The translations under genes were made by a program, and so were the position numbers. 42,039 nucleotides of DNA from Ruminococcus sp. (GTDB lineage Bacteria > Bacillota > Clostridia > Oscillospirales > Acutalibacteraceae), in NCBI GenBank assembly GCA_017473555.1, contig JAFUKO010000077.1, forward strand, positions 1-42,039. The letters run 5' to 3'. Below the pieces are notes generated by a model. That model worked only from the letters and a program-made list of their open reading frames with translations, searched no databases and was not told the origin of the DNA. Below, piece by piece: positions 9,858 to 35,340 of this stretch; positions within the stretch are counted from its first letter, which is position 1; each line of letters opens with the position of its first letter.

Positions 9858-10709
9858 ATGAAAAAGAATATTAAATTTTCAGTGCTTATTATAGCACTTC
9901 TTATGCTGTGTCTGTGCCTGACAGGTTGTTCCGAGCTTGACACAATGCGTGAACAGCAGGCTTTCTGGACAGAAAAAGGCAGCGTTGATTCTATAACCTA
10001 CAATGAGGTTGAGTACAAGAGACTCCCTGGATACGACCCACCAGCTCCAACAGGCTACCAGTTTCAACCTGTTTTTGTAACAGATCCTGATGTACCAGTG
10101 CTTTTATCAAATGAGCTTTCTACATATATGAACTTAAGCGATGACGGAAATTTTCTCACAGGTTATGTATCTATGACTCCCGAACACGACGTCATCACTG
10201 TGTACTCAGCTATGTACTCAGCACTAAGTAATTCATACACCTCATATGAAGGTGGCGATGCAACCTACTGCAAAGCCGACATTTACGATGAAGTTGTAGC
10301 TAAAATCGAAGAAGGTATAAAATACAGTTCATATGGCTATGAATACTGGGTACTCGACGAAGAAACAGGTGTGCACGACTATAAGTATTACTTTCTTACA
10401 GACGAACAATCAGATGCTATCAACAAGGTAGTAGAAGAAGTAAAACCTGTACCGGAAAGTGAGATACCTTACAAAACTCTATGGATTGCATCGCTAGATA
10501 AAATCAGTGAGGATAAGTACTTTTCAAAGACCTCATACGAGATTTATTATGATGATTATCTAGAAATATATTATGTTGTATACTATTCTCCTAGCCTCGG
10601 AACTCATACACACTACGAAGTTCCAAAGAAAATGAATGATATTTTCGATGAAATATCTAAACAAGCTGTTGATAGTAATAATTACTACCTTGAAGACACC
10701 GAGATTTAA
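9858..10709 (+). CDS. Predicted lipoprotein A of the GntR-ABC operon
   Basis: 283-residue lipoprotein: basic N-terminus, hydrophobic segment, and lipobox LTGC with Cys24. The mature part is acidic and Tyr-rich, with no family I recognise. It is a paralogue of the next gene; shared landmarks are MREQQAFWT / MREHHATWT, DSITYNEVEYK / DSITYKGVEYK, VTDPDVPVLLS / VTEPDVPVLLS and YCKADIYDEV / YCKADIYDNV. It begins 15 bp after the permease stop behind AAGGAGG, so it belongs to the ABC operon. A substrate-capture or envelope-sensing role is inference. Confidence 0.85.
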   Translation: MKKNIKFSVLIIALLMLCLCLTGCSELDTMREQQAFWTEKGSVDSITYNEVEYKRLPGYDPPAPTGYQFQPVFVTDPDVPVLLSNELSTYMNLSDDGNFLTGYVSMTPEHDVITVYSAMYSALSNSYTSYEGGDATYCKADIYDEVVAKIEEGIKYSSYGYEYWVLDEETGVHDYKYYFLTDEQSDAINKVVEEVKPVPESEIPYKTLWIASLDKISEDKYFSKTSYEIYYDDYLEIYYVVYYSPSLGTHTHYEVPKKMNDIFDEISKQAVDSNNYYLEDTEI

Positions 10710-12859: not shown

Positions 12860-15811
12860 TTAAGCTACAACGTCGATTGGATCGTACTCGTACATAGTCT
12901 TGCGACCGCCGATCTCAACAGCAGCTTTGATTGTTACTGTACAATCCTTGTTAAAGCCCTCTACTGTGAGCTCTGTAACATCCTCTGTACCGTAAACATA
13001 ACAACCCTTAGCAGTGTCAGCGAATACCCAGTACTTGTAACCGCCTTCTACAGGTTCCCAATCTACAACGAGATTGCCGTCAACCATAGTTGCATCAACT
13101 ACGAGAGCATCTTCCTTATCTGTCTTAGCTGCAACTGCGATACTATTTCTGATCACACCATCTTCAAATAAGAATGCGATCTTGTAGTAGTAAGTTGTAT
13201 CTGCTTTAAGGTTATTGATTGTGAATACGCCGTCTGTTGAAGATGTATAAACTTTGAGATTATTCACTGATGTACCATAGTAAACCCAAGCCTTTGTACA
13301 ACCCTCAGCAGTATAGTTAACTGTAATTGAATTTGTATCTGAAGTGTAAGAAGTCTTGAATGTATAACCTGTAGTTTTAGCATTAACTACATCAGCATCA
13401 GCAGCACTTGTGATAGTGCCATCCTCAAATGATGCGATAACGTAGATAGTGTAATCAGTGTTTACTTTACGATTAGCAATTGTAAAGGCTGTATCAGTTG
13501 TCTTGCCGTAGCATACGCCGTTTACGTATACCCAGTATTTAGCTACGCCTTCAGCAGCATCCCAAGAAATAGAGATTGTGCTTGTTGTAGTAGCGTCAAC
13601 CTTAACGCCCTCTACCTTTGTGATCTTTTCAACAGGCTCTTCTGTTGGCTCCTCTGTTGGTTCCTCAGTTGGCTCCTCTGTTGGTTCCTCAGTTGGCTCC
13701 TCAGTTGGCTCTTCAGTTGGCTCCTCTGTTGGCTCTTCTGTTGGGAAGATAACATCAATGTTCACAGAACCTACTGCATTACCATCATTCCATGTCATAT
13801 AATAGCAAACGCCATCATAGAAACCTTCTTTAATGTCAGGAGTCTGATCTCTACTACCTGAACCATCGTCCTTGATACCATTGATAAGGAAACCGTCTAC
13901 GTCTGCAGGAATTTCCATAAAGTAAACGTCATAAGTACCATCGTTATCGTAGAACTCCATATCTACGCCAGGATGTTCTGTGTCAGCTACCTGTGCGCTA
14001 CCCCAGTAGTGGAGTTGTACGTCTGACCATAACCAGTTGTTCTGGAAGTATACTGTAATTGTATCGATAGGCTCTGTTGGTTCCTCTGTTGCAGGCTCTG
14101 TCTCTGGTACTGTTGGCTGATCGCCTGTAGCCTCTGGATCTTCTGTTGGATCTACAGGTACTTCATCAGGAACAACTGTGAAGTAGAAGTATGACCAAGC
14201 ATCATTACCATCAGGTCTGAAGTAAACTTTGCCTGCACCTGCTTTAGCAGCGCCGATTCCGTAGTTGTCACCCTCGCTCTTGTACCATGTCTTGATTTCT
14301 GTACCATCGAAGTAAACAACCTTAATTTCGTCGCCCTCTACAAATGTGTAGCTGAGCATATACTCGCCAGGAGCTGCTTCGTTTTCAACGAACATTCTGT
14401 CTGCTGAATCAGCATCTACAAACCAGCAGTTCTCACCGTTTAATGTACCAACGAGGTAGTAACCTGCTGGAGCAATAAGCTCAGGCTCTGTAGGCTCTTC
14501 TGTAGGTTCCTCAGTAGGCTCTTCTGTAGGCTCTTCTGTAGGCTCTTCTGTAGGCTCCTCAGTTGGCTCCTCTGTAGGCTCTTCTGTAGGCTCCTCAGTA
14601 GGCTCTTCTGTAGGCTCTTCTGTTGGTTCTTCTGTTGGAATTTCAGGATATGTAACTGAAAGCTGTGAGTTATCAAGACCGAATGAGAATACATAATCAC
14701 CAGCTACAGTTGTTGTAATTTTACAGTTATCACCTGTTGATGAGCTGAATGTAAGGCCTTCAACAGTACCTGTAACAGGTGTTGCACAGCTTGTCCAAGC
14801 ACCCTCTCTTACTATCTTAAACTCATATGTTGTTTCAGCATCGAGTGTAAGTGTAAGATAACCTGTTCTCTCGCCTTCTGCGTTGAGTTTGAACTCATCT
14901 GCAGTTGTACTCCAACTATTGAATTCGCCAACAAGGTAACGATCTGTTGCGAGTGGGTCAACTGCAGGAACGTCATCAAGAGAAGCATACCATGTGCCAG
15001 CTTTTACGTCATAGTACTTACCTTCCTCAAGTGTGAGGTCGTCAGTCTTTGCACCCTTACCATTATCGTTGAAGATAATGTTGTTGTATGGACCACCTTC
15101 AATGTTGATGGCATATACATCAAAACCGTTAACAGTATTTTCTGTCTTGGTCATAGGAGTTCCCGGCCACTCAGCATCGTTGCCAGCATCGTTCCAAGCA
15201 TAAGCTGAAACAGTGTCCCACTTAGCTGAGTTGATACAGTAAACAGTCATAGCAATAGGAGGCTCTGGAGTTGTTTCTTCTGTTGGTTCAACTACAGGAG
15301 CATCTGTTTCTTCCTCTGTTGGCTCAACGCCAGGATCTGTTGTAGGATCTTCAGGTTCAACGACTGTCTCAGTAAATGTTGTCCAACCAGATGTTGAACC
15401 GTCCCAAGCACCGGATGGAACTTTAAACAGATTGTTTGTACCATCGTACTTAAGGTCACCTGACTGATTCCATTTTGAATTCCAGTCGTTTGTAGTTGTA
15501 GCAGGGTTCATACGGCAGAAGATAACATTTGTCCAAGAACCGCTTGGAACTGTTACCTTGTAAATGCCAGCGTCATTAGGGCAAGCTTCCATACCAGCCC
15601 ATGTGTTGCTTGAACCGAAGAAATAGCAAGCAAATCTTGCACCATCTTTTTCCCAGTTGGAATTCGGATCAAGATACAACACTTCGCCACCGGTCATAGT
15701 AACGCCGGTTTCTGCGATTTCAACGCTTCTCGCTGATGCTGCTACTGTAAACATTGAGAACAACATTAACATAGCAAGTACGAGCGAAAGAACTCTTCTT
15801 GTTGATTTCAT
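12860..15811 (-). CDS. Secreted multidomain starch-binding-type protein with PTEE linkers and FN3 domains
   Basis: 983-residue exported protein. The signal peptide covers residues about 1-27 (hydrophobic core then AASA). Domains in order: N-terminal β-domain (about 33-150, LYLDPNSNWEKDGARFACYF); CBM26-like domain (about 188-285, AYAWNDAGNDAEWPGTPM); CBM48-like domain (about 293-388, YLVGEFNSWS); PTEE linker (about 391-443); another β-domain (about 450-550); a second CBM26-like domain (about 590-688); PTEE linker (about 690-727); then about three FN3 domains to the end. There is no catalytic domain, dockerin or sortase motif. ATG 15811 is preferred to GTG 15820 because AAAGAG lies eight bases upstream. 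Starch binding is inferred from the module type. Confidence 0.85.
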   Translation of the reverse strand: MKSTRRVLSLVLAMLMLFSMFTVAASARSVEIAETGVTMTGGEVLYLDPNSNWEKDGARFACYFFGSSNTWAGMEACPNDAGIYKVTVPSGSWTNVIFCRMNPATTTNDWNSKWNQSGDLKYDGTNNLFKVPSGAWDGSTSGWTTFTETVVEPEDPTTDPGVEPTEEETDAPVVEPTEETTPEPPIAMTVYCINSAKWDTVSAYAWNDAGNDAEWPGTPMTKTENTVNGFDVYAINIEGGPYNNIIFNDNGKGAKTDDLTLEEGKYYDVKAGTWYASLDDVPAVDPLATDRYLVGEFNSWSTTADEFKLNAEGERTGYLTLTLDAETTYEFKIVREGAWTSCATPVTGTVEGLTFSSSTGDNCKITTTVAGDYVFSFGLDNSQLSVTYPEIPTEEPTEEPTEEPTEEPTEEPTEEPTEEPTEEPTEEPTEEPTEEPTEEPTEPELIAPAGYYLVGTLNGENCWFVDADSADRMFVENEAAPGEYMLSYTFVEGDEIKVVYFDGTEIKTWYKSEGDNYGIGAAKAGAGKVYFRPDGNDAWSYFYFTVVPDEVPVDPTEDPEATGDQPTVPETEPATEEPTEPIDTITVYFQNNWLWSDVQLHYWGSAQVADTEHPGVDMEFYDNDGTYDVYFMEIPADVDGFLINGIKDDGSGSRDQTPDIKEGFYDGVCYYMTWNDGNAVGSVNIDVIFPTEEPTEEPTEEPTEEPTEEPTEEPTEEPTEEPTEEPVEKITKVEGVKVDATTTSTISISWDAAEGVAKYWVYVNGVCYGKTTDTAFTIANRKVNTDYTIYVIASFEDGTITSAADADVVNAKTTGYTFKTSYTSDTNSITVNYTAEGCTKAWVYYGTSVNNLKVYTSSTDGVFTINNLKADTTYYYKIAFLFEDGVIRNSIAVAAKTDKEDALVVDATMVDGNLVVDWEPVEGGYKYWVFADTAKGCYVYGTEDVTELTVEGFNKDCTVTIKAAVEIGGRKTMYEYDPIDVVA
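13630..13744 (-). repeat. 12-bp tandem repeat encoding PTEE (array 1)
   Basis: About nine or ten copies of a 12-bp unit, plus-strand GGCTCCTCTGTT with silent variants, encoding Pro-Thr-Glu-Glu between the second CBM26-like domain and the FN3 block. Confidence 0.95.
14483..14640 (-). repeat. 12-bp tandem repeat encoding PTEE (array 2)
   Basis: About thirteen copies of a 12-bp unit, plus-strand GGCTCTTCTGTA and variants, encoding PTEE. Because the unit is a multiple of three, copy-number change alters linker length without a frameshift. Confidence 0.95.
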
Positions 15812-15869
15812 AGTGATCACTCTTTCTTAAAATTTTGATGTAAAGTTTTTCCGGTCTTTACTCACAATA

Positions 15870-24247: not shown

Positions 24248-25315
24248 TTAAAATCCCATTTGTGATTTAAAATTTTCCTGTGCTTTTATAAGTGTAAACT
24301 TATCGTTTATAGTAGCTTTTGCTGAAGCTGAAACGCTATCCAGTGTGTCATCTGACAGCACCTCACAAAGAGCCTGAGCGATACTTTCAGCGTCATCATT
24401 TTTCAGCACATAGCCGTTATTTTTATCTTTGATAATATCCTTTATTCCACCGACAGGTGAACACAGTGCAGGAATCCCCATGCTCATACTTTCAAGCACG
24501 GAGTTTGGCATTCCTTCGGTTTTTGTCGGGAACAAAAGGAGTTTCCAGTCTTTCATAACTTCGAACAACTCATCATGCAAAAGCCACCCACGAAGTGTAA
24601 TGAAACTCTCGGCGTTAAGCTTACTGATCAAAGCCTTACACTCATCATAAAGTATTCCGTCACCGACAATTTCAAGCGAATACTCAGGGTGTTTAGAATG
24701 AAACTCATTAAACCCTTCTATACTCTCTAGCACACATTTGCCCGATGCAAGACGGCACAGCATACCCACTTTGTTCTCTCTTTTTGGTGATACTTCAAGG
24801 TCATCGACATAAAGGTGAATTATCCTTGTTTTATCACTTAACTCAATTCCTCTGTCTGAAAGTACCGCCTTGCTTTCAGCACACACAAAATCAGCCTTAC
24901 TGGCTAAAAAATCCTGACTTTTCTTTGTGGTCTGTGCTTTTTTTGAGGCATTTTCAAGCGATGTCATACCATAGAGAAAAAAGTATGTTTTCACTCCCTT
25001 GAGTTTACATAGGAGCATCGACGAAAACATCTTGTCCCCTACCCAGAAAAAAGCAGTATCGCCTTTCTTCAGAGTTATCATAGCTTTTAAAAAAACTTTA
25101 AGCTGAAACCATATAAAATTAATAATTCTTAAAACCTTGTTGCTCTGCTTTTTGTATTTTACATTTATGACGTTAGCATCTTCTGTATCATCGAGCGAAG
25201 ATGAAATAATACTGATTTTATCGAAGCTCACAGCAATAACTTTTAGAAATTTAAAAGCTGAAATTTGCGGTGCTTTGCTTGGTACAGGGTTCATAAAAAC
25301 TACAGCGTCAGCCAT
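24248..25315 (-). CDS. Glycosyltransferase family 4
   Basis: 355-residue GT-B protein. Donor-domain motifs are GMLCRLASGKCVLESIEGF, FITLRGWLLHDELFEVMKDWKLLLFPTKTEGMPNSVLESMSMGIPALCS. ATG 25315 is chosen instead of 25324 because AAAAGGA lies eight bases upstream of it, whereas the earlier ATG would sit on the ribosome site. Either way the start overlaps the end of the radical SAM gene, so the genes are coupled. Specificity unknown. Confidence 0.9.
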   Translation of the reverse strand: MADAVVFMNPVPSKAPQISAFKFLKVIAVSFDKISIISSSLDDTEDANVINVKYKKQSNKVLRIINFIWFQLKVFLKAMITLKKGDTAFFWVGDKMFSSMLLCKLKGVKTYFFLYGMTSLENASKKAQTTKKSQDFLASKADFVCAESKAVLSDRGIELSDKTRIIHLYVDDLEVSPKRENKVGMLCRLASGKCVLESIEGFNEFHSKHPEYSLEIVGDGILYDECKALISKLNAESFITLRGWLLHDELFEVMKDWKLLLFPTKTEGMPNSVLESMSMGIPALCSPVGGIKDIIKDKNNGYVLKNDDAESIAQALCEVLSDDTLDSVSASAKATINDKFTLIKAQENFKSQMGF

Positions 25316-26783
25316 TGTACTCATCCTTTTTGAAGAGTGAATTTTTGAGTCGTAAGAACGCTTTGAGTGAGCGTTTTAGATCCTCAAAATCGGTTAACCC
25401 ACGTTTTATACGGTGGCAGATATACCACGGGCGGAGGTAGTATTTTTTACGTGCGTGAGCACAAAAAGCCACAAGCTCGTCCGAGCTCAGTTCTTCTGTA
25501 CTGATAACACAATTAAGGGTGCCATCCTCTTTGAGATAGTGTGAATAACCCTGCTTTATGTAGCCGTTTTCCTTAGCCCAGTTATATGCCTCAGTACCCG
25601 GATATGGTATAAGCGGGAAAAACTGCATTGTGTCCGTTTTAAAACGCAGAGCAGCATCAAGTGTACGTTGCATAGTTTCTTTAGTTTCGCCTTTATTGCC
25701 GACCATATAGCACGCATGAATCATAAGTCCTGCTTTTTTAGCATTTTTTATATAATTCTCAATCTGCTCAACAGTGATACCTTTGCGGATATTGTTGAGT
25801 ATAGTCTGGTCAACACTTTCGATACCCGGAATAATGAGCTTGCATCCTGCTTTTTTCATTATCTGCATCGTCTCTAAATCAAGATTGACTCTGGCGTTAC
25901 ACAACCAACGGATTTTCTTATTCATTCCGCTACTGATCATTTTTTCACAAAACTCAACAGTTCGCTTTTTATTAACGGTAAAGGTGTCATCTTCGATAAC
26001 AACCTGCTTCACTTCAGGGAAATTTTTCAGGATATATTCAAATTCAGCGATAACGTTATCTACTGAACGCAATCTGTATTTATGACCATGTAGAGTCTGT
26101 GGATACACACAGTAGTTGCACCTGGCTGGGCAACCACGTCCTGTAAAAATCTGAATCTCAGGCAACGCTGATGCAGGAAAAACGTAGTCATTTACGTCGA
26201 GATATTCTTTGATAAACTCTGATGCAAACGGTATCTCATCCAGATTTTCAATATGCTCAGCATCAGGGTTGTCTATAATCTCACCGTTTTTTCTGTAAGA
26301 AAGACCTTTTACTACGGATAAATCATCGTTATTATTTATGGCATCAGCAAGATTTTTAATAATAAAGTCATATTCTTTTCTCGCAATGCCGTCTATAGCT
26401 TGAGAAAATGTAAAAGTCTCGTTGACAGTTGCTGACGGATGAGTACCGACAAGCACAGTGAAACTGTCAGGATACATATTCTTGACCGCCTCACAGAACT
26501 CGCAGTCACTGTATATCGAAGGAGTACTGGTATTGAATACAAAAAGGCTTACGTCCTTACCCTTTTCCCTAATTATCTCAAGCGATTTTTCTTTATTTAG
26601 AAGCTTTGCTGGTGCATCTAAAAACTCCACCTCATAACCGCACTTTTTTGAGTAAGCGGCAGCATAGATGAGCCACAATGGATAGTAAAGCACTCCACTG
26701 TGACCGATGCAAGGACTCCTTGATTCTCTGGAGAACTTGCCGTATTCTGCTTTGAATGGTGGATTTATAAAAAAGATTTTCAT
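25308..26783 (-). CDS. Radical SAM protein with B12-binding-like N-terminal domain
   Basis: 491-residue protein. Residues about 1-150 resemble a cobalamin-binding Rossmann domain (INPPFKAEYGKFSRE, YPLWLIYAAAYSKKCGYEVEFLDA), without the DxHxxG cobalamin-His motif, as is usual for this radical SAM class. The radical SAM core begins with GRGCPARCNYC, the CxxxCxxC [4Fe-4S] ligands at about C218, C222 and C225, followed by VIEDDTFTVNKKR and GIESVDQTILNNIRKG. Members methylate or rearrange unactivated carbons. Located between GT2 and GT4 genes, it may modify a sugar or lipid carrier of this polysaccharide; that is inference. Confidence 0.88.
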   Translation of the reverse strand: MKIFFINPPFKAEYGKFSRESRSPCIGHSGVLYYPLWLIYAAAYSKKCGYEVEFLDAPAKLLNKEKSLEIIREKGKDVSLFVFNTSTPSIYSDCEFCEAVKNMYPDSFTVLVGTHPSATVNETFTFSQAIDGIARKEYDFIIKNLADAINNNDDLSVVKGLSYRKNGEIIDNPDAEHIENLDEIPFASEFIKEYLDVNDYVFPASALPEIQIFTGRGCPARCNYCVYPQTLHGHKYRLRSVDNVIAEFEYILKNFPEVKQVVIEDDTFTVNKKRTVEFCEKMISSGMNKKIRWLCNARVNLDLETMQIMKKAGCKLIIPGIESVDQTILNNIRKGITVEQIENYIKNAKKAGLMIHACYMVGNKGETKETMQRTLDAALRFKTDTMQFFPLIPYPGTEAYNWAKENGYIKQGYSHYLKEDGTLNCVISTEELSSDELVAFCAHARKKYYLRPWYICHRIKRGLTDFEDLKRSLKAFLRLKNSLFKKDEYNG

Positions 26784-27564: not shown

Positions 27565-28278
27565 TCAGGATACTACCTCCTCATAATAGCTTGTGTAGTA
27601 ACCCTTTCCGTAGGTTTTTTTGTAATACTTTTTGTAGTAAGAATCTCCACGCTTACCGCTGAAATTAAGCACTGCACCCAAAATTTTACATCCGCTTTTT
27701 TCAAGTTGAACCTTTGTGCGTTTAGCTTGTCTGTATCTTACTCTGCCCGCACTTATCACCATAACAGCAGCATCGCAATACTTTGCAATAACAGCACTGT
27801 CGATAACAAGTCCGAGAGGTGGTGTGTCTATAATAACGTAATCGTACTCTTCTTTCAGCGAATTCAGTAATTCTGCAAATCTTTCACCCATCATAAGGTC
27901 AACAGGATTCGGGCAGTGAGGCCCGGACACAATAATGTCAAAATTCTCATACTGTGTGGAACAAATAACCTCTTCCTTTTTTCCAAGACCGGTAAGATAC
28001 TCACTCAGCCCTTTAACGCTTCTGGCATTGGAATAGTTTGAGCTAACCACAGATTTACGTAAATCGCAATCAACATAGATAACCTTTTTGTTTATATCCG
28101 AAAGGGCTTTTGAAAGCATCAGAGAAACAGTTGTTTTGCCTTCGTTTGCATCACAACTTGTAATATTTATAACCTTGTATTCGCTACCGCAAAACTGAAG
28201 ATTTGTTCGCAAGGTTTTAAACGACTCATTCACAAAATAATTATCAAGTTTGTTGAGTCTGAGTTCAATATTAGGCAT
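27565..28278 (-). CDS. CpsD/CapB-type bacterial tyrosine kinase
   Basis: 237-residue BY-kinase that regulates capsule export and chain length with its membrane partner. Walker A SCDANEGKTT at residues 41-50, Walker A' VIYVDCDLRK, Walker B DYVIIDTPPLG. The C-terminus is a Tyr cluster (about twelve Tyr in the last 30 residues), the autophosphorylation site. Start overlaps the cpsC stop by one base. It pairs with the preceding CpsC, the split two-protein form typical of Firmicutes. Confidence 0.95.
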   Translation of the reverse strand: MPNIELRLNKLDNYFVNESFKTLRTNLQFCGSEYKVINITSCDANEGKTTVSLMLSKALSDINKKVIYVDCDLRKSVVSSNYSNARSVKGLSEYLTGLGKKEEVICSTQYENFDIIVSGPHCPNPVDLMMGERFAELLNSLKEEYDYVIIDTPPLGLVIDSAVIAKYCDAAVMVISAGRVRYRQAKRTKVQLEKSGCKILGAVLNFSGKRGDSYYKKYYKKTYGKGYYTSYYEEVVS

Positions 28279-29057
28279 TATCTGTTCCCCCTTCCGTTTT
28301 TTGAGTAATATCTATAGCGTTGAGCACCTGCTCTGCCATAATATGCATCTTTTTTGTTTACCGGCTTTTCCTTGTCCATATTCGGTACAAGCGCAAGCAC
28401 GCTAAGTCCGAGCTGCTTCTCCAGCATATCAGGGTCCGAAATCTTGTCGTCAAAAATATAAACCAACACGAAAACAATATACGTCATGATGAATGCTACC
28501 AATGCAAAAATCACCGTTGTGTATGAATACTTAGAATTACTAGGAGTATCAGACAGAGTTCCCTCATCAACAATGTTAACCTGATTAAAGCCCATAAGAC
28601 TGACAATTTGTTCCTTACCGATTTCGCATATAGAGTCAACAATCATCTTAGATTTTTCAGCGCTATCGGACACCACAGAAATCTCCAGATAACGTGTGTT
28701 TGTCGGGTTAGTGATTGAAATCATTGAGTTGAGTTCGCTGTATGTATACTCAAGTGAACACTCATCAATAACCTGATTTAAAACCGTGCGACTTGTTAAA
28801 AGCTTTGTACAGTCACTCACAACACTCAACGCAAGGTTGAAGTCAGAGTTATAGTCAGAACTATTCTCCAGATCATCATCCTGCCTTAAAATATAAATTG
28901 AGCCCGTAGATTTATACAGTGGCTCATATGTAATATAGTTAAAAGCAAACAGAGAACCGCCCACAATCACTGCTACCAGAATCATAACCCATAGCTTTGA
29001 TACAAAGAGATAAAACAATTCTCTGAACTTAATCGAGCTCTCGTTGTTATTCTGCAT
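28278..29057 (-). CDS. CpsC/Wzz-type chain-length determinant and kinase modulator
   Basis: 259-residue membrane protein with two transmembrane helices (about residues 20-38 and 175-200) around an external domain, the Wzz fold. The N-terminus KFRELFYLFVSKLWVMILVAV and the C-terminal VYIFDDKISDPDMLEKQLGLSVLALVPNMDKEK are typical of CpsC, whose cytosolic tail activates CpsD. ATG 29057 is chosen for the AAAGGATTGGGG site upstream; the longer frame to 29108 lacks one. First gene of the leftward polysaccharide operon. Confidence 0.94.
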   Translation of the reverse strand: MQNNNESSIKFRELFYLFVSKLWVMILVAVIVGGSLFAFNYITYEPLYKSTGSIYILRQDDDLENSSDYNSDFNLALSVVSDCTKLLTSRTVLNQVIDECSLEYTYSELNSMISITNPTNTRYLEISVVSDSAEKSKMIVDSICEIGKEQIVSLMGFNQVNIVDEGTLSDTPSNSKYSYTTVIFALVAFIMTYIVFVLVYIFDDKISDPDMLEKQLGLSVLALVPNMDKEKPVNKKDAYYGRAGAQRYRYYSKNGRGNR

Positions 29058-29136
29058 AATAACCCCAATCCTTTCGAAACTATCAAAATCAAAAAAGTGT
29101 ATACACACACTCTCTCATTATACTTATACATTATAA

Positions 29137-29289: not shown

Positions 29290-29318
29290 TTGACATTTAA
29301 AGTCTCAGGTTGTATAAT
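29290..29318 (+). promoter_or_regulatory. Perfect consensus promoter of the LicD/cytidylyltransferase operon
   Basis: TTGACA (29290-29295), 17 bp, TATAAT (29313-29318). Both boxes are exact consensus. The leader to the ATG at 29398 is about 73 nt. Confidence 0.9.
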
Positions 29319-29397: not shown

Positions 29398-31032
29398 ATG
29401 AAACCGATTACACAACAAGTTACTTTCAAGAATCACGACGTTGTCAACAAGGTGAGAGCTGACCTCTTAAAAATCATAGATGACATCTGCCTTGAAAACA
29501 ATCTTTCATACTTCGGATTCAGAGATCTGCTGATTGGTGCAATTCATTACAACGACTTTATCCCGAATGGTCTTAAGTCAAAAACCGAAATCGGTCTTAT
29601 GAGAGAAGATTACAACAAACTGTGCGAAATTCTCTACAAAAAAGAGAAAGAGCTCGATATCCAGATTATCGACCGCTACCCAAGTGGTGCAAAAGCTCTC
29701 ATTATGACTATCGCAAGACCTGTTGTTATCGAATCAGAAGATGCTGTTATCTCTGACCTTGCTACAGTTGAAATCAGTGCATTTGACTATCTGCCAAATA
29801 CAGAAGCTGAACAGAAGATGTACTTGAGAAAAGTCGCTTCTCTTCGTGATAAATACAACAAAATGGTCAATCTCACTCCTCCGGCAACAACTGTTCCGAT
29901 GAGTCTGAGAAAGGTGTTCAATCTTTTCTGGGGTACACTGTGCTATGGCACTAAAAATCCTAAGAAGACATACCGCAAGTTGCTCAAAACAGTTCAGAAG
30001 TACCAGAACACAAAATACATCACTCGCCTTATTCCAAGACGAAGTGTTATGATTGAATATGACAAGGTGTTCCCTACACAGCGTATCAAGGTAAATCACG
30101 CTGAGATCAACATTCCTAACACCTACAACAAATGGACTGTTGAAATCAACGATGCGTTGATGGAACAGACACGCACAATTCAAAAAATCGACCTTGTTCT
30201 TTTAAAAGAATTCGACAGAGTTTGTCGCAAGATTGGTGTAGGCTACTTTGTATGTGGTGGCACAATGCTCGGTCATATACGTCACGATGGTTTCATTCCA
30301 TGGGATGACGATATCGACGTAGGAATGCTCAGAGCTGATTACGACAAGTTCCTTAAAGAAGGCGGTAAATACTTAGGCGAAGATTTCTTCTTACAGACAA
30401 GAAAATCCGACCCTAAAATTCCTTACCTCTTCTCTAAAATCCGATTAAACGGAACATCGTACATTACTAACTACAACGAGAAGCGTGACTTCCACAAGGG
30501 AATTTGTCTTGACCTCTTCCCATTTGACTACATTCCTAACTCACTCAATGAAAGACAGCGCTTCAAAAATAAAGTTCTTTTCTGGTCAAACATTCACCAC
30601 AAGGTCATCAACCGTCACAAAGAAAAGGCTATTTACGACGAAAAGCCTGCTTCACTGTATGAGTGGTGGGCAAGAACTTACAATGAGTTCAGACGCAGAC
30701 TTGTACACCTTGTACCGCTGAAACTGACTCAGGCTCTTTACATCAAAAAGGCAACTTACTATAATTCAAAAGCAGAAGAAATGGGACTTACAACAGTGGC
30801 TTCATTCCTTCCTACCTACACTTACGCTGATGTCAAAGATATGATTCCGTATCAGGATATCGACTTTGAAGGCATTAAAGTTATGGCTTTGAAAGATATG
30901 GATAAGTTCCTTACAATGCAGTACAACGACTATATGAGACTTCCTCTGTTACACCAGCGTGTCGGTCATGACCTTGTTTCATGGCACGTTGACGAGGAGA
31001 TTGCTAAAAAGTATCACATTTACGACGATTAA
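29398..31032 (+). CDS. LicD-family phosphotransferase with a degenerate N-terminal copy
   Basis: 544-residue protein with two LicD-like halves. The C-terminal half is intact: CGGTMLGHIRHDGFIPWDDDIDVGMLRADY, with the catalytic DDDID at about residues 303-307. LicD enzymes transfer phosphocholine or other phospho-alditols from CDP donors to glycans. The N-terminal half repeats the frame (FRDLLIGAIHYNDFIPNGLK then SKTEIGLMREDY, about 41-72) but the acidic DDDID is replaced, so it is probably inactive. Start has AAAGGA upstream. It heads an operon with a cytidylyltransferase, consistent with CDP-alditol use. Confidence 0.92.
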   Translation: MKPITQQVTFKNHDVVNKVRADLLKIIDDICLENNLSYFGFRDLLIGAIHYNDFIPNGLKSKTEIGLMREDYNKLCEILYKKEKELDIQIIDRYPSGAKALIMTIARPVVIESEDAVISDLATVEISAFDYLPNTEAEQKMYLRKVASLRDKYNKMVNLTPPATTVPMSLRKVFNLFWGTLCYGTKNPKKTYRKLLKTVQKYQNTKYITRLIPRRSVMIEYDKVFPTQRIKVNHAEINIPNTYNKWTVEINDALMEQTRTIQKIDLVLLKEFDRVCRKIGVGYFVCGGTMLGHIRHDGFIPWDDDIDVGMLRADYDKFLKEGGKYLGEDFFLQTRKSDPKIPYLFSKIRLNGTSYITNYNEKRDFHKGICLDLFPFDYIPNSLNERQRFKNKVLFWSNIHHKVINRHKEKAIYDEKPASLYEWWARTYNEFRRRLVHLVPLKLTQALYIKKATYYNSKAEEMGLTTVASFLPTYTYADVKDMIPYQDIDFEGIKVMALKDMDKFLTMQYNDYMRLPLLHQRVGHDLVSWHVDEEIAKKYHIYDD

Positions 31033-31054
31033 AATCTAATCAAGAGGTAAACTT

Positions 31055-31768
31055 ATGAATACAGTTCTTTTAATGATGGGCGGAAGCGGTACAAGATTTG
31101 GCGCCGCTATTCCAAAACAGTATATCAAAGTAAACGACAGACCAATTTTCTCATACATCCTTGAGGGTTACAACAAACTCGACTGCGTTGATAAAATCAT
31201 CATCGTTTCTCACGCTGACTGGGTAGACTATGTAGAAGAAGTTGCAAAAGAAATCGGAGCTGACAAACTCTACAAGGTTGTAACAGGCGGTGACACACGT
31301 TCTGATTCTGTTAAGAATGGTCTTATCTGTGCAAGCGAGTATTCAAACGACGATGATGTTATTATGATCCACGATGCTACTCACCCTTATGTTGACAAAA
31401 AGGGCACACAGGAAGTAATCGAGGGTGTTAAGGAGTTTGGCGGTGCGACACTTGCATCTTTCAACTATGACACTGTTTACAAAATGGACGATGACCACAT
31501 CCTCACAAATATTGAGCCTCGTTTCAATATCGTAGCAGGTGCTTCACCTGAGGCATTCACTTTCAGAAAAATCTACGATATCTATATGGGTTCTACAAAA
31601 GAGGAGCTTGATAGCATGACGTCAGCAGGTGCTATCGCTCTTCACTATGGTATCAAAATGAAAGTTATCAAGGCTAACGTGATTAACCTTAAAATCACTT
31701 ACGCTGACGATATGGATTTATTCATTAAGCTTATCGACAACTACTTCTTCCCAAAGGAGGAAAACTAA
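31055..31768 (+). CDS. IspD/TarI-family cytidylyltransferase
   Basis: 237-residue nucleotidyltransferase. The nucleotide loop GGSGTRFGAAIPKQY (about residues 9-23), the VVTGGDTRSDSVKNGL block and MIHDATHPYV are the IspD/TarI motifs. It would join CTP with a polyol or terpenoid phosphate. Context argues against the housekeeping IspD role: it sits between licD and two galactitol-type genes in a surface-glycan locus, so a CDP-alditol product is likely. GAGGT lies seven bases before the start. The housekeeping role remains possible. Confidence 0.88.
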   Translation: MNTVLLMMGGSGTRFGAAIPKQYIKVNDRPIFSYILEGYNKLDCVDKIIIVSHADWVDYVEEVAKEIGADKLYKVVTGGDTRSDSVKNGLICASEYSNDDDVIMIHDATHPYVDKKGTQEVIEGVKEFGGATLASFNYDTVYKMDDDHILTNIEPRFNIVAGASPEAFTFRKIYDIYMGSTKEELDSMTSAGAIALHYGIKMKVIKANVINLKITYADDMDLFIKLIDNYFFPKEEN

Positions 31769-33094
31769 ATGAGAAACAAATTACTTGACGTTTTGGAAAA
31801 ACGCACCTTAGGTATCCACTGTGGTATTCCATCATTATGCTCAGCTAACAAAATTGTTATCGAAGCTATTATGGATCAGGCTAAGCGTTTTGACGATACC
31901 GTTTTAATCGAAGCTACTTCAAACCAAGTAAACCAGTTCGGTGGTTATATGGATATGACTTCCGTAGATTTCAGGGAGTATGTTTACAAAATCGCTGACC
32001 AGATTGGTTTTGATAAAGATAAAATCATCTTAGGTGGCGACCACTTAGGTCCGCTTCCTTGGTGCAACTTACCTGCAGATGAAGCTATGGAACACGCTAA
32101 AAAGCTCGTTTACGATTGCGTTATGGCTGGGTATACAAAGGTTCACCTTGACACAAGTATGAAGCTTGGTGATGACCCGATTGACGAAATGCTTCCTAAC
32201 GAAGTTATCGCTGAGCGTGGTGCTATTCTTTACAAAGAATGTGACAAGGCTTATCAGGAATTATTAAAAGAAAATCCTGATGCAGTTCACCCTGTTTATA
32301 TTATCGGCTCTGAGGTTCCTATCCCTGGCGGTTCTCAAGAAGAAGAGGACAACCTAAAGGTCACTAACCCAAGAGATTTCGAAAGCACAATTATGGCATA
32401 CCGCAGAATGTTTAATAAGCTAGGCTTAAAAGATGCCTGGAACCACATTATCGGTATTGTTGTTCAGCCTGGTGTAGAATTTGGCAACACCGATATTCAT
32501 ACATACAACCGTCTTGATGCAGTCAAGCTGTGCAACCGCTTAAAGAAGTATCCTGACATCGTATTTGAGGGTCATTCAACTGACTATCAACCACCTGTAA
32601 AGCTCAGAGAAATGGTCGAAGACGGCATTGCTATCATCAAGGTAGGTCCTGCTTTGACTAACGCTGTAAGAGAAGCTATCTTCGCTCTCTCTATGATTGA
32701 AAAAGAGCTTATCGATGACGAATCACAGCGTGCAAACTTCATCGAAGTTCTAGAGCAGGTTATGATGGATGAACCTTCCAACTGGATCAAACACTATCAC
32801 GGCACAGAGAAACAGCAGGCTATCGCCAGAAAGTACAGTTTCTCTGACCGTTCAAGATATTATTTCACACACGAGAAAGTTCTCTATGCTCAGGAAAAAC
32901 TGTTCGACAACCTTTCTAACGTCGAAATTCCACTTCCTGTGCTCCACCAGTATATGCCATTACAGTATTCAAAAGTCAGAGATGGTAAGCTCGCTTGCAC
33001 TCCACGTGAGCTCGCAAAAGATGCCGTTGTATGCGTAGTAGAAGACTACAACTACGCTGTTAAGTGCAACTATATGGCTAACCCTATGATGTAA
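31769..33094 (+). CDS. GatZ/KbaZ-family protein (class II tagatose-bisphosphate aldolase non-catalytic subunit family)
   Basis: 441-residue TIM-barrel-type protein. Family motifs: GIHCGIPSLCSANKIVIEAIMDQA, VLIEATSNQVNQFGGYMDM, ILGGDHLGPLPWCNLPADEAM, KVHLDTSMKLGDDP and FEGHSTDYQPP, with possible metal ligands (D/H in GGDHLG and EGHSTD). Classic members assist tagatose-bisphosphate aldolase, but some relatives are reported as fructose-6-phosphate 4-epimerases. No aldolase catalytic partner is encoded here, which favours an epimerase role. ATG follows the previous stop directly, with GGAGG inside the upstream gene. Confidence 0.88.
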   Translation: MRNKLLDVLEKRTLGIHCGIPSLCSANKIVIEAIMDQAKRFDDTVLIEATSNQVNQFGGYMDMTSVDFREYVYKIADQIGFDKDKIILGGDHLGPLPWCNLPADEAMEHAKKLVYDCVMAGYTKVHLDTSMKLGDDPIDEMLPNEVIAERGAILYKECDKAYQELLKENPDAVHPVYIIGSEVPIPGGSQEEEDNLKVTNPRDFESTIMAYRRMFNKLGLKDAWNHIIGIVVQPGVEFGNTDIHTYNRLDAVKLCNRLKKYPDIVFEGHSTDYQPPVKLREMVEDGIAIIKVGPALTNAVREAIFALSMIEKELIDDESQRANFIEVLEQVMMDEPSNWIKHYHGTEKQQAIARKYSFSDRSRYYFTHEKVLYAQEKLFDNLSNVEIPLPVLHQYMPLQYSKVRDGKLACTPRELAKDAVVCVVEDYNYAVKCNYMANPMM

Positions 33095-33115
33095 TCGAAA
33101 GAAGGTTTTTTACAA

Positions 33116-34162
33116 ATGAAAGCTGCTGTTTTACACGCTAATAAAGACATCAGATTTGACGAAATTCCAACACCTGTAGTAGAAAAAGGCACTGTACTTG
33201 TTAAAGTAGTAGCAACAGGTATCTGTGGTTCTGACCTTCCACGAGTTCACGACCACGCTGCTCATAACTACCCTATCATTTTAGGTCACGAGTTTTCAGG
33301 TTATGTTGCTGAAATCGGCGAGGGTGTTACTTCTGTTTCTAAAGATGACCATGTTGTTGGTATTCCGCTTGTTCCTTGTATGGAGTGTGAGGACTGCAAA
33401 AATGGCAACTACTCACTTTGCAAACACTACAGCTTTGTAGGCTCACGTCAGAACGGCTCAATGGCAGAATATGTACTCTTACCTGAGAGCAACGTAATGA
33501 AGATTGATAAGTCAATTCCTTTCGAAGTTGCTGCTTTCTTCGAACCATCAACTGTTGCTATCCACGCTTTGTATCAGGCTGACTATAAAGACGGCGGCAC
33601 TGTTGCAGTATTGGGTGGCGGTAACATCGGTCTTTTCACCTTACAGTGGATTAAAATTTTCGGTGCAAAAAAAGTTGTCGTAATCGATGTTGACCACGAC
33701 AGATTAAAGGATTCTTTAGATTTAGGTGCTGACGCTGTCGTTGCTCTTTGCGATGAAGACTACAAGGAGCAGTTAAACGCACTCACTGACAATCGTGGTT
33801 TTGACTACGTATTTGTGTCCACCGGTTCAACCGATGCTATGAAGCTTGCTTTCGAAATTGCAGGCAACAAAGCTCACCTTTGCTTCATCGGTACTCCTAC
33901 AAAGGAGATGACTTTCTCTGTTAAAGAGTGGGAGAATATGAACCGTAAAGAGTTCTATCTCACAGGCTCATGGATGTCATACTCAAAGCCGTTCCCTGGC
34001 AAAGAGTGGGAAATGACAGACAAGCATTTCGCAATCGGTGACTTAAAAGTTACTGACAGCATGATTTTCGAGCAATATCCACTTGATAAAACTATGGAGG
34101 CGTTCAACCTTTTCACTATACCTGGCAAGGTAAAGGGCAAGGTTCAGATTATCGACAAATAA
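33116..34162 (+). CDS. Zinc-dependent polyol-phosphate dehydrogenase (GatD-like MDR)
   Basis: 348-residue medium-chain dehydrogenase. Catalytic-zinc motif GHEFSGYVAEIGEGV with the preceding CGSDLPR, the structural-zinc cysteines in CMECEDCKNGNYSLC, and NAD-binding GGGNIGLF. Length and sequence style match galactitol-1-phosphate 5-dehydrogenase (GatD), which interconverts tagatose-6-P and galactitol-1-P; TarJ, which makes ribitol-5-P for teichoic acid, belongs to the same superfamily. In this operon the reducing direction would supply the cytidylyltransferase with an alditol phosphate (inference). GAAGG upstream. Confidence 0.9.
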   Translation: MKAAVLHANKDIRFDEIPTPVVEKGTVLVKVVATGICGSDLPRVHDHAAHNYPIILGHEFSGYVAEIGEGVTSVSKDDHVVGIPLVPCMECEDCKNGNYSLCKHYSFVGSRQNGSMAEYVLLPESNVMKIDKSIPFEVAAFFEPSTVAIHALYQADYKDGGTVAVLGGGNIGLFTLQWIKIFGAKKVVVIDVDHDRLKDSLDLGADAVVALCDEDYKEQLNALTDNRGFDYVFVSTGSTDAMKLAFEIAGNKAHLCFIGTPTKEMTFSVKEWENMNRKEFYLTGSWMSYSKPFPGKEWEMTDKHFAIGDLKVTDSMIFEQYPLDKTMEAFNLFTIPGKVKGKVQIIDK

Positions 34163-34175
34163 TCTATTGAGTGTT

Positions 34176-35294
34176 ATGGCTAGTAATATTAAAGAGCGTA
34201 TCTACAAATTTGATAATATCAAGCTACTGACTATCGTACTTGTTGTTGTCGGCCACGTAATCGAAGGCTACGTTGACAAGTCCGATATGTTCAAAAGCTT
34301 ATTCATATTCATCTATTCGTTCCATATGCCGCTGTTTATTTATTTGAGTGGTTTGTTCCAGAAACGTTTTTCTGATGAAAACAAACTCAAAATAAACAAG
34401 ATTGCATTTTATGTAACTCTGGGCTTTTTGCTTAAAACCATTAACGCCCTGGCAAAAATGGCAGACGGCAAAAAGTTCTCCATCGACTTCTTTGGTGGAG
34501 CGAGTATAGACTGGTATCTGTTTGTGATGTCGATGTTTATGGTGACAGCGTACTTAACCAGAAAGATTCATCCTGCTGTTATGCTCAGCGTATCAGCTGT
34601 TTTAGGATGTGTAAGTGGTTACTTTGATTTTATCGACGACACGCTTTATTTATCCAGATTCTTTGTGTTCCTGCCGATATACTTACTCGGCTATTATATG
34701 ACACCACAGCTTCTCATTAAGATTGAGAAAAACTATGTAGTCAAGGCCGTAAGCGGAACATTTATGCTGTTGTACTTTGTTCTGTGTTTCAGAAATCTCG
34801 ATTTGATTTACAAATTAAGACGACTGTTCACAGGAAAAAATCCGTTCTCGTCAGTACCTATAGACGGTTGCGGTTTTGAGCACAGGCTGATGTGCTATGG
34901 CATCTCAATTATGCTATGTATGGCTGTATTCTGCTTTATACCTAACATCAAAGTGCCGATTCTATCAAATATGGGAGCTAACACTTTGGCTGTATATTTC
35001 TGGCACAGACCATTACTTTATCTTTTAAGTGCAACACCGTTTTTTGAAATAATAATCAATCTCGGCGATCCGCTGTACAAGATAATACTCTTGAGCTTTG
35101 GTGTAATACTCGCACTCGTGCTTTCATTCAATGTGTTTATGAAACCGTTAAACACTTTAGGAAAGCTCATCAACAAACTCAGTCCACTTTGGTGTTATGT
35201 ATTAATATTCGCACCATTCTTTGTGGGATTGCTTACTATTATTAATGAGCTTCCCTCCTACTTCTCATATCTTTTGAGTAAAATCAAAAACTAA
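34176..35294 (+). CDS. Acyltransferase family 3 membrane protein
   Basis: 372-residue multi-pass membrane protein: DNIKLLTIVLVVVGHVIEGY with the catalytic-type His, FHMPLFIYLSGLF, and NTLAVYFWHRPLLYLL near the end, as in the acyltransferase-3 family. ATG 34176 is used; a TTG at 34167 is in frame but lacks any ribosome site. The site before ATG is also weak, so coupling to the gene 14 bp upstream is likely. Last gene of the operon, before a strong terminator. It may O-acetylate the same glycan. Confidence 0.88.
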   Translation: MASNIKERIYKFDNIKLLTIVLVVVGHVIEGYVDKSDMFKSLFIFIYSFHMPLFIYLSGLFQKRFSDENKLKINKIAFYVTLGFLLKTINALAKMADGKKFSIDFFGGASIDWYLFVMSMFMVTAYLTRKIHPAVMLSVSAVLGCVSGYFDFIDDTLYLSRFFVFLPIYLLGYYMTPQLLIKIEKNYVVKAVSGTFMLLYFVLCFRNLDLIYKLRRLFTGKNPFSSVPIDGCGFEHRLMCYGISIMLCMAVFCFIPNIKVPILSNMGANTLAVYFWHRPLLYLLSATPFFEIIINLGDPLYKIILLSFGVILALVLSFNVFMKPLNTLGKLINKLSPLWCYVLIFAPFFVGLLTIINELPSYFSYLLSKIKN

Positions 35295-35302
35295 ACATAC
35301 AA

Positions 35303-35340
35303 AAACCGCACAGTGCAAATCACTGTGCGGTTTATTTTTT
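35303..35340. terminator. Bidirectional terminator between acyltransferase and DAHP synthase
   Basis: AAACCGCACAGTG (35303-35315), loop CAAAT, CACTGTGCGGTTT (35321-35333), then a T-run. Serves both convergent operons. Confidence 0.92.

Follow-up and report, generated by a model that had tools for sequence, protein, structure and literature searches.

The 42,039 nucleotide contig JAFUKO010000077.1 of a Ruminococcus sp. genome (GCA_017473555.1), analysed over its whole length and hereafter called the window, contains a five-gene operon (29398-35294, + strand) that is probably a cassette for making cytidine diphosphate (CDP)-activated galactitol for a cell-envelope glycopolymer. Two enzymes of galactitol breakdown, GatZ and GatD, look to be run in reverse here, and a biosynthetic role for the operon is very likely. 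Galactitol is the probable polyol, judging from homology and operon logic. An initial annotation, prepared from the letters and open reading frames of the window, had proposed this same route, had named the five genes, and had remarked on the lack of aldolase and phosphotransferase system (PTS) partners. All five genes are indeed present, intact and in the same direction, no PTS or GatY/KbaY gene is seen among the open reading frames listed for it, and the biosynthetic reading is supported by the comparisons below. The operon consists of the following genes and domains:

29398..31032, + strand: licD-like gene, predicted alditol-phosphate transferase (544 aa; PF04991, 144.9 bits, cut-off 22.6)
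29398..30147, + strand: N-terminal half of the LicD protein, a degenerate LicD repeat that lacks the DDD motif (profile-profile comparison with the C-terminal half, probability 99.7, E 2.6e-25, 10-row alignment)
30223..30924, + strand: catalytic LicD domain with a GGTMLG...IPWDDDID motif (PF04991, 144.9 bits; D303, D304, D305 and D307 invariant in 10 aligned proteins)
31055..31768, + strand: cytidylyltransferase of the IspD/TarI superfamily, from a separate clade, with galactitol phosphate as its predicted substrate (237 aa; PF01128, 111.6 bits)
31769..33094, + strand: gatZ-like gene, predicted fructose-6-phosphate/tagatose-6-phosphate 4-epimerase (441 aa; PF08013, 562.4 bits, gathering cut-off 26.7)
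33116..34162, + strand: gatD-like zinc dehydrogenase of the medium-chain dehydrogenase/reductase (MDR) family, predicted to form galactitol phosphate by reducing tagatose-6-phosphate (348 aa; best relative of known structure E. coli GatD, 4a2c)
34167..35294, + strand: membrane acyltransferase (acyltransferase 3, PF01757; 375 aa, 52 bits)

In the proposed route GatZ would epimerise fructose-6-phosphate at C4 to tagatose-6-phosphate, which GatD, working in the reductive direction, would convert to galactitol phosphate; the IspD/TarI-like enzyme would join this to CTP to give CDP-galactitol, and LicD would transfer the galactitol-phosphate group to an acceptor, most likely the exopolysaccharide of a divergent neighbouring gene cluster. 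The acyltransferase may then acylate the product, perhaps O-acylating the polymer or the polyol itself. We infer the direction, from fructose-6-phosphate to galactitol phosphate, from the presence of a consumer of the product, and likewise infer the identity of product and acceptor. Gaps between successive genes are 22, 0, 21 and 4 bases, and the five likely form a single transcription unit.

Recurrence of the cassette

A scan of a species-level genome collection yielded 565 confirmed GatZ relatives, and the shares given here refer to the best 80 of these, a sample that favours near relatives (loci, contigs and genomes carry our identifiers L, C and G). A cytidylyltransferase of the window type stands at 28 of the best 80 GatZ loci, which takes the co-occurrence beyond chance. 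Within these 28 cassette loci, which include one (L084) whose cytidylyltransferase overlaps another frame, GatD is present in 27, LicD in 18, a PF04464-like gene (CDP-glycerol glycerophosphotransferase) in 10, and one transferase or the other in 23; cytidylyltransferase, reductase and alditol-phosphate transferase occur together in the window and in 22 of the 28 (L097 is without GatD). Gene order varies (IspD-GatZ-GatD, GatD-IspD-GatZ, GatD-GatZ-LicD-IspD, IspD-GatD-GatZ), and a further locus, L185, shows a fifth arrangement, GatZ-GatD-LicD-IspD.

No match to E. coli GatY, KbaY, GatA, GatB, AgaV, AgaC, AgaD or AgaS was found in the fetched stretch of any of the 28 cassette loci, nor any match to EIIC-GAT, the galactitol PTS permease, in 29 cassette genomes searched, some of them incomplete. 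The whole window genome (93% complete) likewise gave no EIIC-GAT match, a single GatZ match, and one class II aldolase-family match, on a different contig.

GatZ is scarce near the window organism, occurring in 8 of 250 family genomes (two being distant matches of 58.8 and 54.2 bits that were excluded from the cassette counts) and in 22 of 394 order genomes. Identity to the window GatZ is 56-98% in the first 39 of the best 80 and at most 48% in the remainder, a gap that is partly an artefact of the scan because it missed GatZ proteins of 54-56% (L202-L205). By name the carriers are Ruminococcus, Oscillospiraceae, Lachnospiraceae, Erysipelotrichaceae, Bacilli and Eubacterium, together with a record labelled Candidatus Cacconaster (Bacteroidota by name) and an Eggerthellales bacterium with a divergent GatZ (47% identity). 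The latter protein is placed among non-cassette GatZ in our tree, on a long branch whose position is unsure, and this grouping suggests a separate recruitment. At L087, which lies on the same contig as L018, we used a 404-residue open frame; the wider match contains a TAG that was not read through. Viral contigs gave 56 pattern matches to GatZ and zero confirmed relatives, so nothing favours a phage-borne cassette.

A distinct cytidylyltransferase

The window cytidylyltransferase scores under the IspD equivalog cut-off (TIGR00453, 129.1 versus 181.3) and under that for ribitol-5-phosphate cytidylyltransferase (NF001183, 142.5 versus 166), though NF001183 is its top NCBIfam model. By sequence its two best PDB matches are 3f1c, annotated as putative IspD 2, and 4jis, a ribitol-5-phosphate cytidylyltransferase. 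The window genome holds four PF01128 matches in total, on the window and on contigs C108, C121 and C37. The C108 protein passes TIGR00453 (212.6 versus 181.3) and adjoins IspF, and on this ground we rejected the window gene as the IspD of the genome; the worry attached to the initial annotation, that it might be the sole IspD, is thereby removed as far as sequence can tell. The C121 gene is tarI-like and well above the ribitol-5-phosphate cut-off (NF001183, 370.2 versus 166), and the C37 protein is best matched by GlmU models. Contig C121 (L025:4000-9193) carries a LicD locus of its own, comprising an ABC transporter pair, a 599-aa LicD protein, the tarI-like gene and a dehydrogenase, that probably serves a ribitol-phosphate polymer.

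Across 391 genomes of the class we found one other close homologue of the window cytidylyltransferase (230 bits; the next scores 124), that of L185, and because only this one near protein exists among so many genomes we assign the window enzyme to a discrete clade. All 31 cassette proteins keep the superfamily core residues G10, G12, R14, K21, D107 and K213, which we take to be active-site residues. At position 110 each of the 31 has histidine, where 29 of 32 other family members (chosen automatically by position, without one-by-one checking) have arginine; this arginine corresponds to R109 of E. coli IspD, a residue that lies close to the alditol phosphate when it is bound. Positions 190-192 read S-A-G in every cassette protein, D-A-A in the C121 protein and D-D-C in the C108 IspD. 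Since H110 and S190-A191-G192 are specific to the clade, and the arginine is taken to lie near the alditol phosphate, an altered acceptor site is suggested for the cassette enzymes.

IspF was without a match in 3 of the 29 cassette genomes, those of L082 (G618), L086 (G622) and L088 (G624). The only PF01128 match in the L082 and L088 genomes is the cassette cytidylyltransferase itself, and in that of L086 it is joined by one partial match at a contig end. HMG-CoA synthase was found in none of the 7 genomes searched for it, these three included, so the lack of IspF fits a missing pathway and an incomplete genome alike.

GatZ and GatD

The window GatZ falls under the cut-off of TIGR02810 (507.1 versus 568.8), the equivalog for the non-catalytic subunit of tagatose-bisphosphate aldolase, and the operon is without the GatY/KbaY partner that such a subunit would have. 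E. coli GatZ and KbaZ are reported to convert fructose-6-phosphate to tagatose-6-phosphate, in a study that also names seven active-site residues of GatZ from a model: the zinc or catalytic residues D87, H88, E171 and H257, and C20, E44 and K279 (PMC11907403). The window protein retains all seven (C24, E48, D91, H92, E182, H269, K291), as do 31 of 31 cassette proteins, 12 of 12 from Bacteroidales and 51 of 51 other GatZ, save that E171 is replaced by D in 4 of those 51. This retention is consistent with the epimerase competence that the initial annotation had counted on, and it speaks to competence only, not to anabolic or catabolic use, because catabolic GatZ has the same residues.

For the window GatD the top NCBIfam model is galactitol-1-phosphate 5-dehydrogenase (NF007642), at 297.9 bits against a cut-off of 550. 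Equivalents of E. coli GatD C38, H59 and E144 and of four cysteines, which we take to be zinc ligands, are retained in 30 of 30 cassette GatDs. A galactitol-PTS operon from the same order as the window organism (L064), containing a GatY/KbaY-like aldolase, GatZ, GatD, EIIC-GAT and EIIA, has a GatD that is 58% identical to the window protein and 38% identical to that of E. coli, and that groups among the cassette GatDs in a weakly supported tree.

Transferases and exporters

The catalytic domain of the window LicD occupies its C-terminal half, and Pfam LicD gives no match to the N-terminal half. The only NCBIfam match of the protein is to diacylglycerol cholinephosphotransferase (Mf1), at 59.4 bits against a cut-off of 225. 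It also weakly matches FKRP, a ribitol-phosphate transferase, and shares with that protein and the LicD family the GGTMLG...DDDID motif; the degenerate repeat on its N-terminal side is an addition to theirs. A LicD relative at L106 (L106:3476-6604) reaches 1042 residues and aligns repeatedly to the window LicD, which suggests that it holds further LicD repeats.

A PF04464-like gene lies directly upstream in L082, L084, L086, L088 and L091, at greater distance in L083, L093, L109 and L125, and divergently in L090; it occurs without LicD in L082, L088, L090, L093 and L109. Pfam confirmed PF04464 in four of these proteins, and the others were assigned by BLAST similarity to those four. L082, L083 and L096 each have an ABC-2 exporter pair, that of L082 being assigned by Pfam, and L093 has a flippase and a Wzz protein. 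PF04464 proteins, ABC-2 exporters, flippases and Wzz proteins are partners of teichoic-acid and capsule synthesis. Relatives of the acyltransferase are present in 14 of the 28 cassette loci.

The cassettes of L092, L094 and L095 follow genes for a DUF2804 protein (assigned by Pfam in L092) and for proteins of 749 and 530 aa, and have no transferase within reach.

Signals and flanking genes

The operon is bounded by sequence elements that match the expectations for a promoter and a terminator, and opposite it begins a polysaccharide cluster:

29290..29318, + strand: promoter-like site TTGACA-17-TATAAT (12 of 12 sigma-70 consensus positions, by consensus match only), 79 bases 5' of licD
35303..35333, + strand: terminator-like hairpin of 13 pairs, readable on both strands, just 3' of the acyltransferase gene (sequence match only)
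27565..29108, - strand: divergent exopolysaccharide genes for a Wzz-like protein (28278-29108) and an AAA_31 ATPase (27565-28278), opening the neighbouring polysaccharide cluster

Sigma-70-like sites number 20 in the region against 16.6 expected, and the site at 29290-29318 is the sole 12/12 match. Of 11 near loci searched, 5 (L073, L076, L078, L079, L085) have relatives of both the Wzz-like and the AAA_31 protein next to the cassette; these were not found at L074, L075, L077, L080, L081 and L020, some of which are short contigs.

Within the exopolysaccharide cluster, a radical SAM protein that also has a B12-binding domain (25308-26783) has counterparts of 90-98% identity at the corresponding position in L073, L076, L078 and L085. 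Farther away, positions 12860-15820 encode a protein of 986 aa that carries long PTEE repeats and begins with a signal-like stretch.

GatZ and GatD outside the cassette

The remaining 52 of the best 80 GatZ loci comprise 12 from Bacteroidales and 40 others, of which 36 have aga/kba/gat catabolic genes and four are unclassified. Of 20 order-level loci fetched, 16 have aga/kba/gat matches and four do not, and none of the 20 has a cassette-type cytidylyltransferase, LicD or PF04464-like gene; the GatZ genes at L065, L067, L068 and L069 have neither the cassette nor recognised aga/kba/gat neighbours. The co-conservation of GatZ and licD foreseen in the initial annotation is therefore a property of the cassettes, where GatZ accompanies the cytidylyltransferase, GatD and either LicD or PF04464, LicD being one of two alternative transferases, and it does not extend to the family, most of which (the 36 aga/kba/gat loci, the Bacteroidales, all 20 order-level loci and the kinase-type loci described next) is without licD.

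Nine phylum-level loci were fetched from 12 matched genomes, and in seven of them (L202-L207, L210) GatD and GatZ stand with an FGGY kinase. Pfam recognised the kinase in four of the seven, and the other three were assigned through their similarity to one of these. L203 has only the end of the kinase, at a contig edge, and L208 and L209 do not fit the pattern. The seven are likely kinase-type catabolic loci for galactitol or a related polyol, and the pairing with a kinase would match the needs of a route from galactitol to fructose-6-phosphate. Because the GatZ-GatD pair recurs in both PTS and FGGY-kinase settings, it looks like one module whose polyol enters by a PTS or is phosphorylated by a kinase, and which in the window has been joined to a cytidylyltransferase.

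Several observations weigh against assigning the operon to CDP-galactitol synthesis. GatD, GatZ and the cytidylyltransferase of the window all score below their NCBIfam cut-offs, including the equivalogs for galactitol enzymes, and the GatZ active-site residues are identical in catabolic GatZ. The kinase-type loci L202-L205, which are not cassettes, are nearly as close to the window (GatZ 54-56%, GatD 53-56%) as the distant cassette members, so closeness alone cannot fix the use or the exact substrate of these enzymes. The GatD tree is weakly supported and includes only three catabolic GatDs, and in L097 a short-chain dehydrogenase/reductase (SDR) occupies the place of GatD. Neither LicD nor PF04464 is present in the fetched stretch of 5 of the 28 cassette loci (L080, L081, L092, L094, L095), with which a translated search agrees. 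Finally, the 12 Bacteroidales GatZ proteins (L098-L105, L107, L108, L110, L111; GatZ near position 10000 in most) share a part of the tree with cassette GatZ and stand without any other cassette component; in 11 of the 12 loci an Fe-ADH_2-type gene (glycerol-1-phosphate dehydrogenase type) lies near GatZ, the family having been identified on the L098 protein and the others clustered with it. These Bacteroidales loci may import and degrade a polyol phosphate, which might be released by bacteria that carry the cassette.

The SDR of L097 is of the epimerase type (L097:10294-11364) and sits at the position of GatD in other cassettes. At L104, GatZ and the Fe-ADH gene have a HAD phosphatase and two MFS transporters between and beside them.

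Alternative readings

The alternative that survives best, although we consider it unlikely, is that the cassette makes a CDP-hexitol other than CDP-galactitol, either through a GatD that acts on the opposite face of the C2 ketone, leading to the talitol/altritol series, or through a GatZ that uses another ketose phosphate. Room for this is left by the distance of GatD, which is far below its equivalog cut-off, and of GatZ from TIGR02810, by the poor resolution of the GatD tree, by the substitution of an SDR in L097, and by the GatDs beside FGGY kinases, which are 40-56% identical to the window protein and may act on a phosphorylated or a free polyol. Against this, the PTS-operon GatD of L064 is closer to the window GatD than to that of E. 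coli, the catalytic residues of GatZ are unchanged, and the recurrence of the GatZ-GatD pair with PTS and FGGY kinase fits the interconversion of galactitol phosphate, tagatose-6-phosphate and fructose-6-phosphate.

Marginally less likely again is a variant of the CDP-galactitol reading in which galactitol phosphate is placed on a glycolipid or lipoteichoic-type anchor instead of a polysaccharide. It draws on the cholinephosphotransferase match of LicD, and is opposed by the exopolysaccharide cluster that runs divergently from the operon, both in the window and in the 5 of 11 near loci searched, and by the PF04464, flippase, Wzz or ABC-2 exporter genes that stand with the cassette elsewhere.

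That the operon holds a second TarI/TarJ pair making CDP-ribitol, with GatZ as an unrelated passenger, is very improbable. The PDB matches and the top NCBIfam model of the cytidylyltransferase, under its cut-off, point that way, but the tarI-like gene of C121 is already accompanied by a dehydrogenase, a LicD and ABC transporter genes, the dehydrogenase of the window resembles GatD and is 25% identical to that of C121, and GatZ accompanies the cytidylyltransferase across several gene orders. We rejected a tarIJ duplicate on the strength of the C121 set and the GatD-like dehydrogenase.

A galactitol catabolic operon or its remnant, which is what GatZ and GatD serve in other bacteria and what catabolic neighbours indicate at the 36 of 40 other non-Bacteroidales loci and 16 of 20 order-level loci, is the least credible reading and was rejected, since no PTS or aldolase genes are seen among the open frames of the window or in the fetched stretches of the cassette loci (no GatY/KbaY/GatA/GatB/Aga matches in the 28), EIIC-GAT was not found in any of the 29 cassette genomes searched, the window's included, and the cytidylyltransferase is present in 28 of 28 cassette loci and a phosphotransferase in 23 of 28.

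Relation to known systems and implications

The CDP-ribitol systems tarIJ and bcs1 combine an IspD-superfamily cytidylyltransferase, a zinc MDR dehydrogenase and a LicD- or TarL-type alditol-phosphate transferase. The window operon has this same three-part layout, as does the set on C121 in the same genome; it differs in adding the GatZ epimerase, in the GatD-like nature of its dehydrogenase, and in a cytidylyltransferase under the ribitol cut-off with clade-specific residues. The abp1/abp2 and mnp1/mnp2 systems have a two-enzyme layout. As described in the accessible portions of reports on CDP-arabinitol (abpA, PMC10118250) and NDP-mannitol (mnp1, PMC5028725) of the pneumococcal capsule, they resemble the window operon in activating a sugar alcohol for capsule, and differ in that the alcohol is a pentitol or mannitol rather than galactitol and that those portions mention no epimerase; the likeness is one of description. 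With the E. coli gat operon and the clostridial L064 operon the window shares the GatZ and GatD families and the chemistry linking galactitol phosphate, tagatose-6-phosphate and fructose-6-phosphate, but its reactions are proposed to run in the opposite direction, and it has a cytidylyltransferase and LicD where they have a PTS and aldolase. The GatZ/KbaZ 4-epimerases, with which the seven residues are held in common, were studied for tagatose production in E. coli (PMC11907403), whereas here GatZ belongs to an envelope-type operon.

Searches of open-licence PubMed Central papers found no mention of CDP-galactitol, no paper treating gatZ together with LicD, none, judged by title, on a pathway joining galactitol to a cytidylyltransferase, and none on teichoic-acid polyols; a class of teichoic-acid-like polymers with galactitol phosphate in the main chain did not turn up among the papers listed. 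The galactitol of PMC5116648 and PMC5070880 is, in the accessible portions of those papers, a product of methylation analysis and not native galactitol.

On the reading that we favour, the cassette would be a CDP-alditol pathway that differs from the known ones in its polyol and in having an extra epimerase. As only three soluble enzymes are involved, starting from fructose-6-phosphate, the pathway could be tested in one tube. A broader proposal, which we advance tentatively and rate as possible rather than probable, is that GatZ has a dedicated anabolic role in a CDP-galactitol pathway widely shared among Bacillota of the gut and rumen and present in one or more actinobacterial lineages, and that where PF04464 and ABC-2 exporters accompany the cassette, galactitol phosphate would be built into the backbone of a teichoic-acid-like polymer rather than merely decorate it. 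If the reading is correct, galactitol would join the short list of CDP-activated sugar alcohols on bacterial surfaces, and the presence of aldolase-less GatZ-type epimerases in gut commensals would be accounted for. The cassette would also provide a genetic marker for uncultured gut bacteria with hexitol-phosphate surface polymers, which host immunity and phages may meet.

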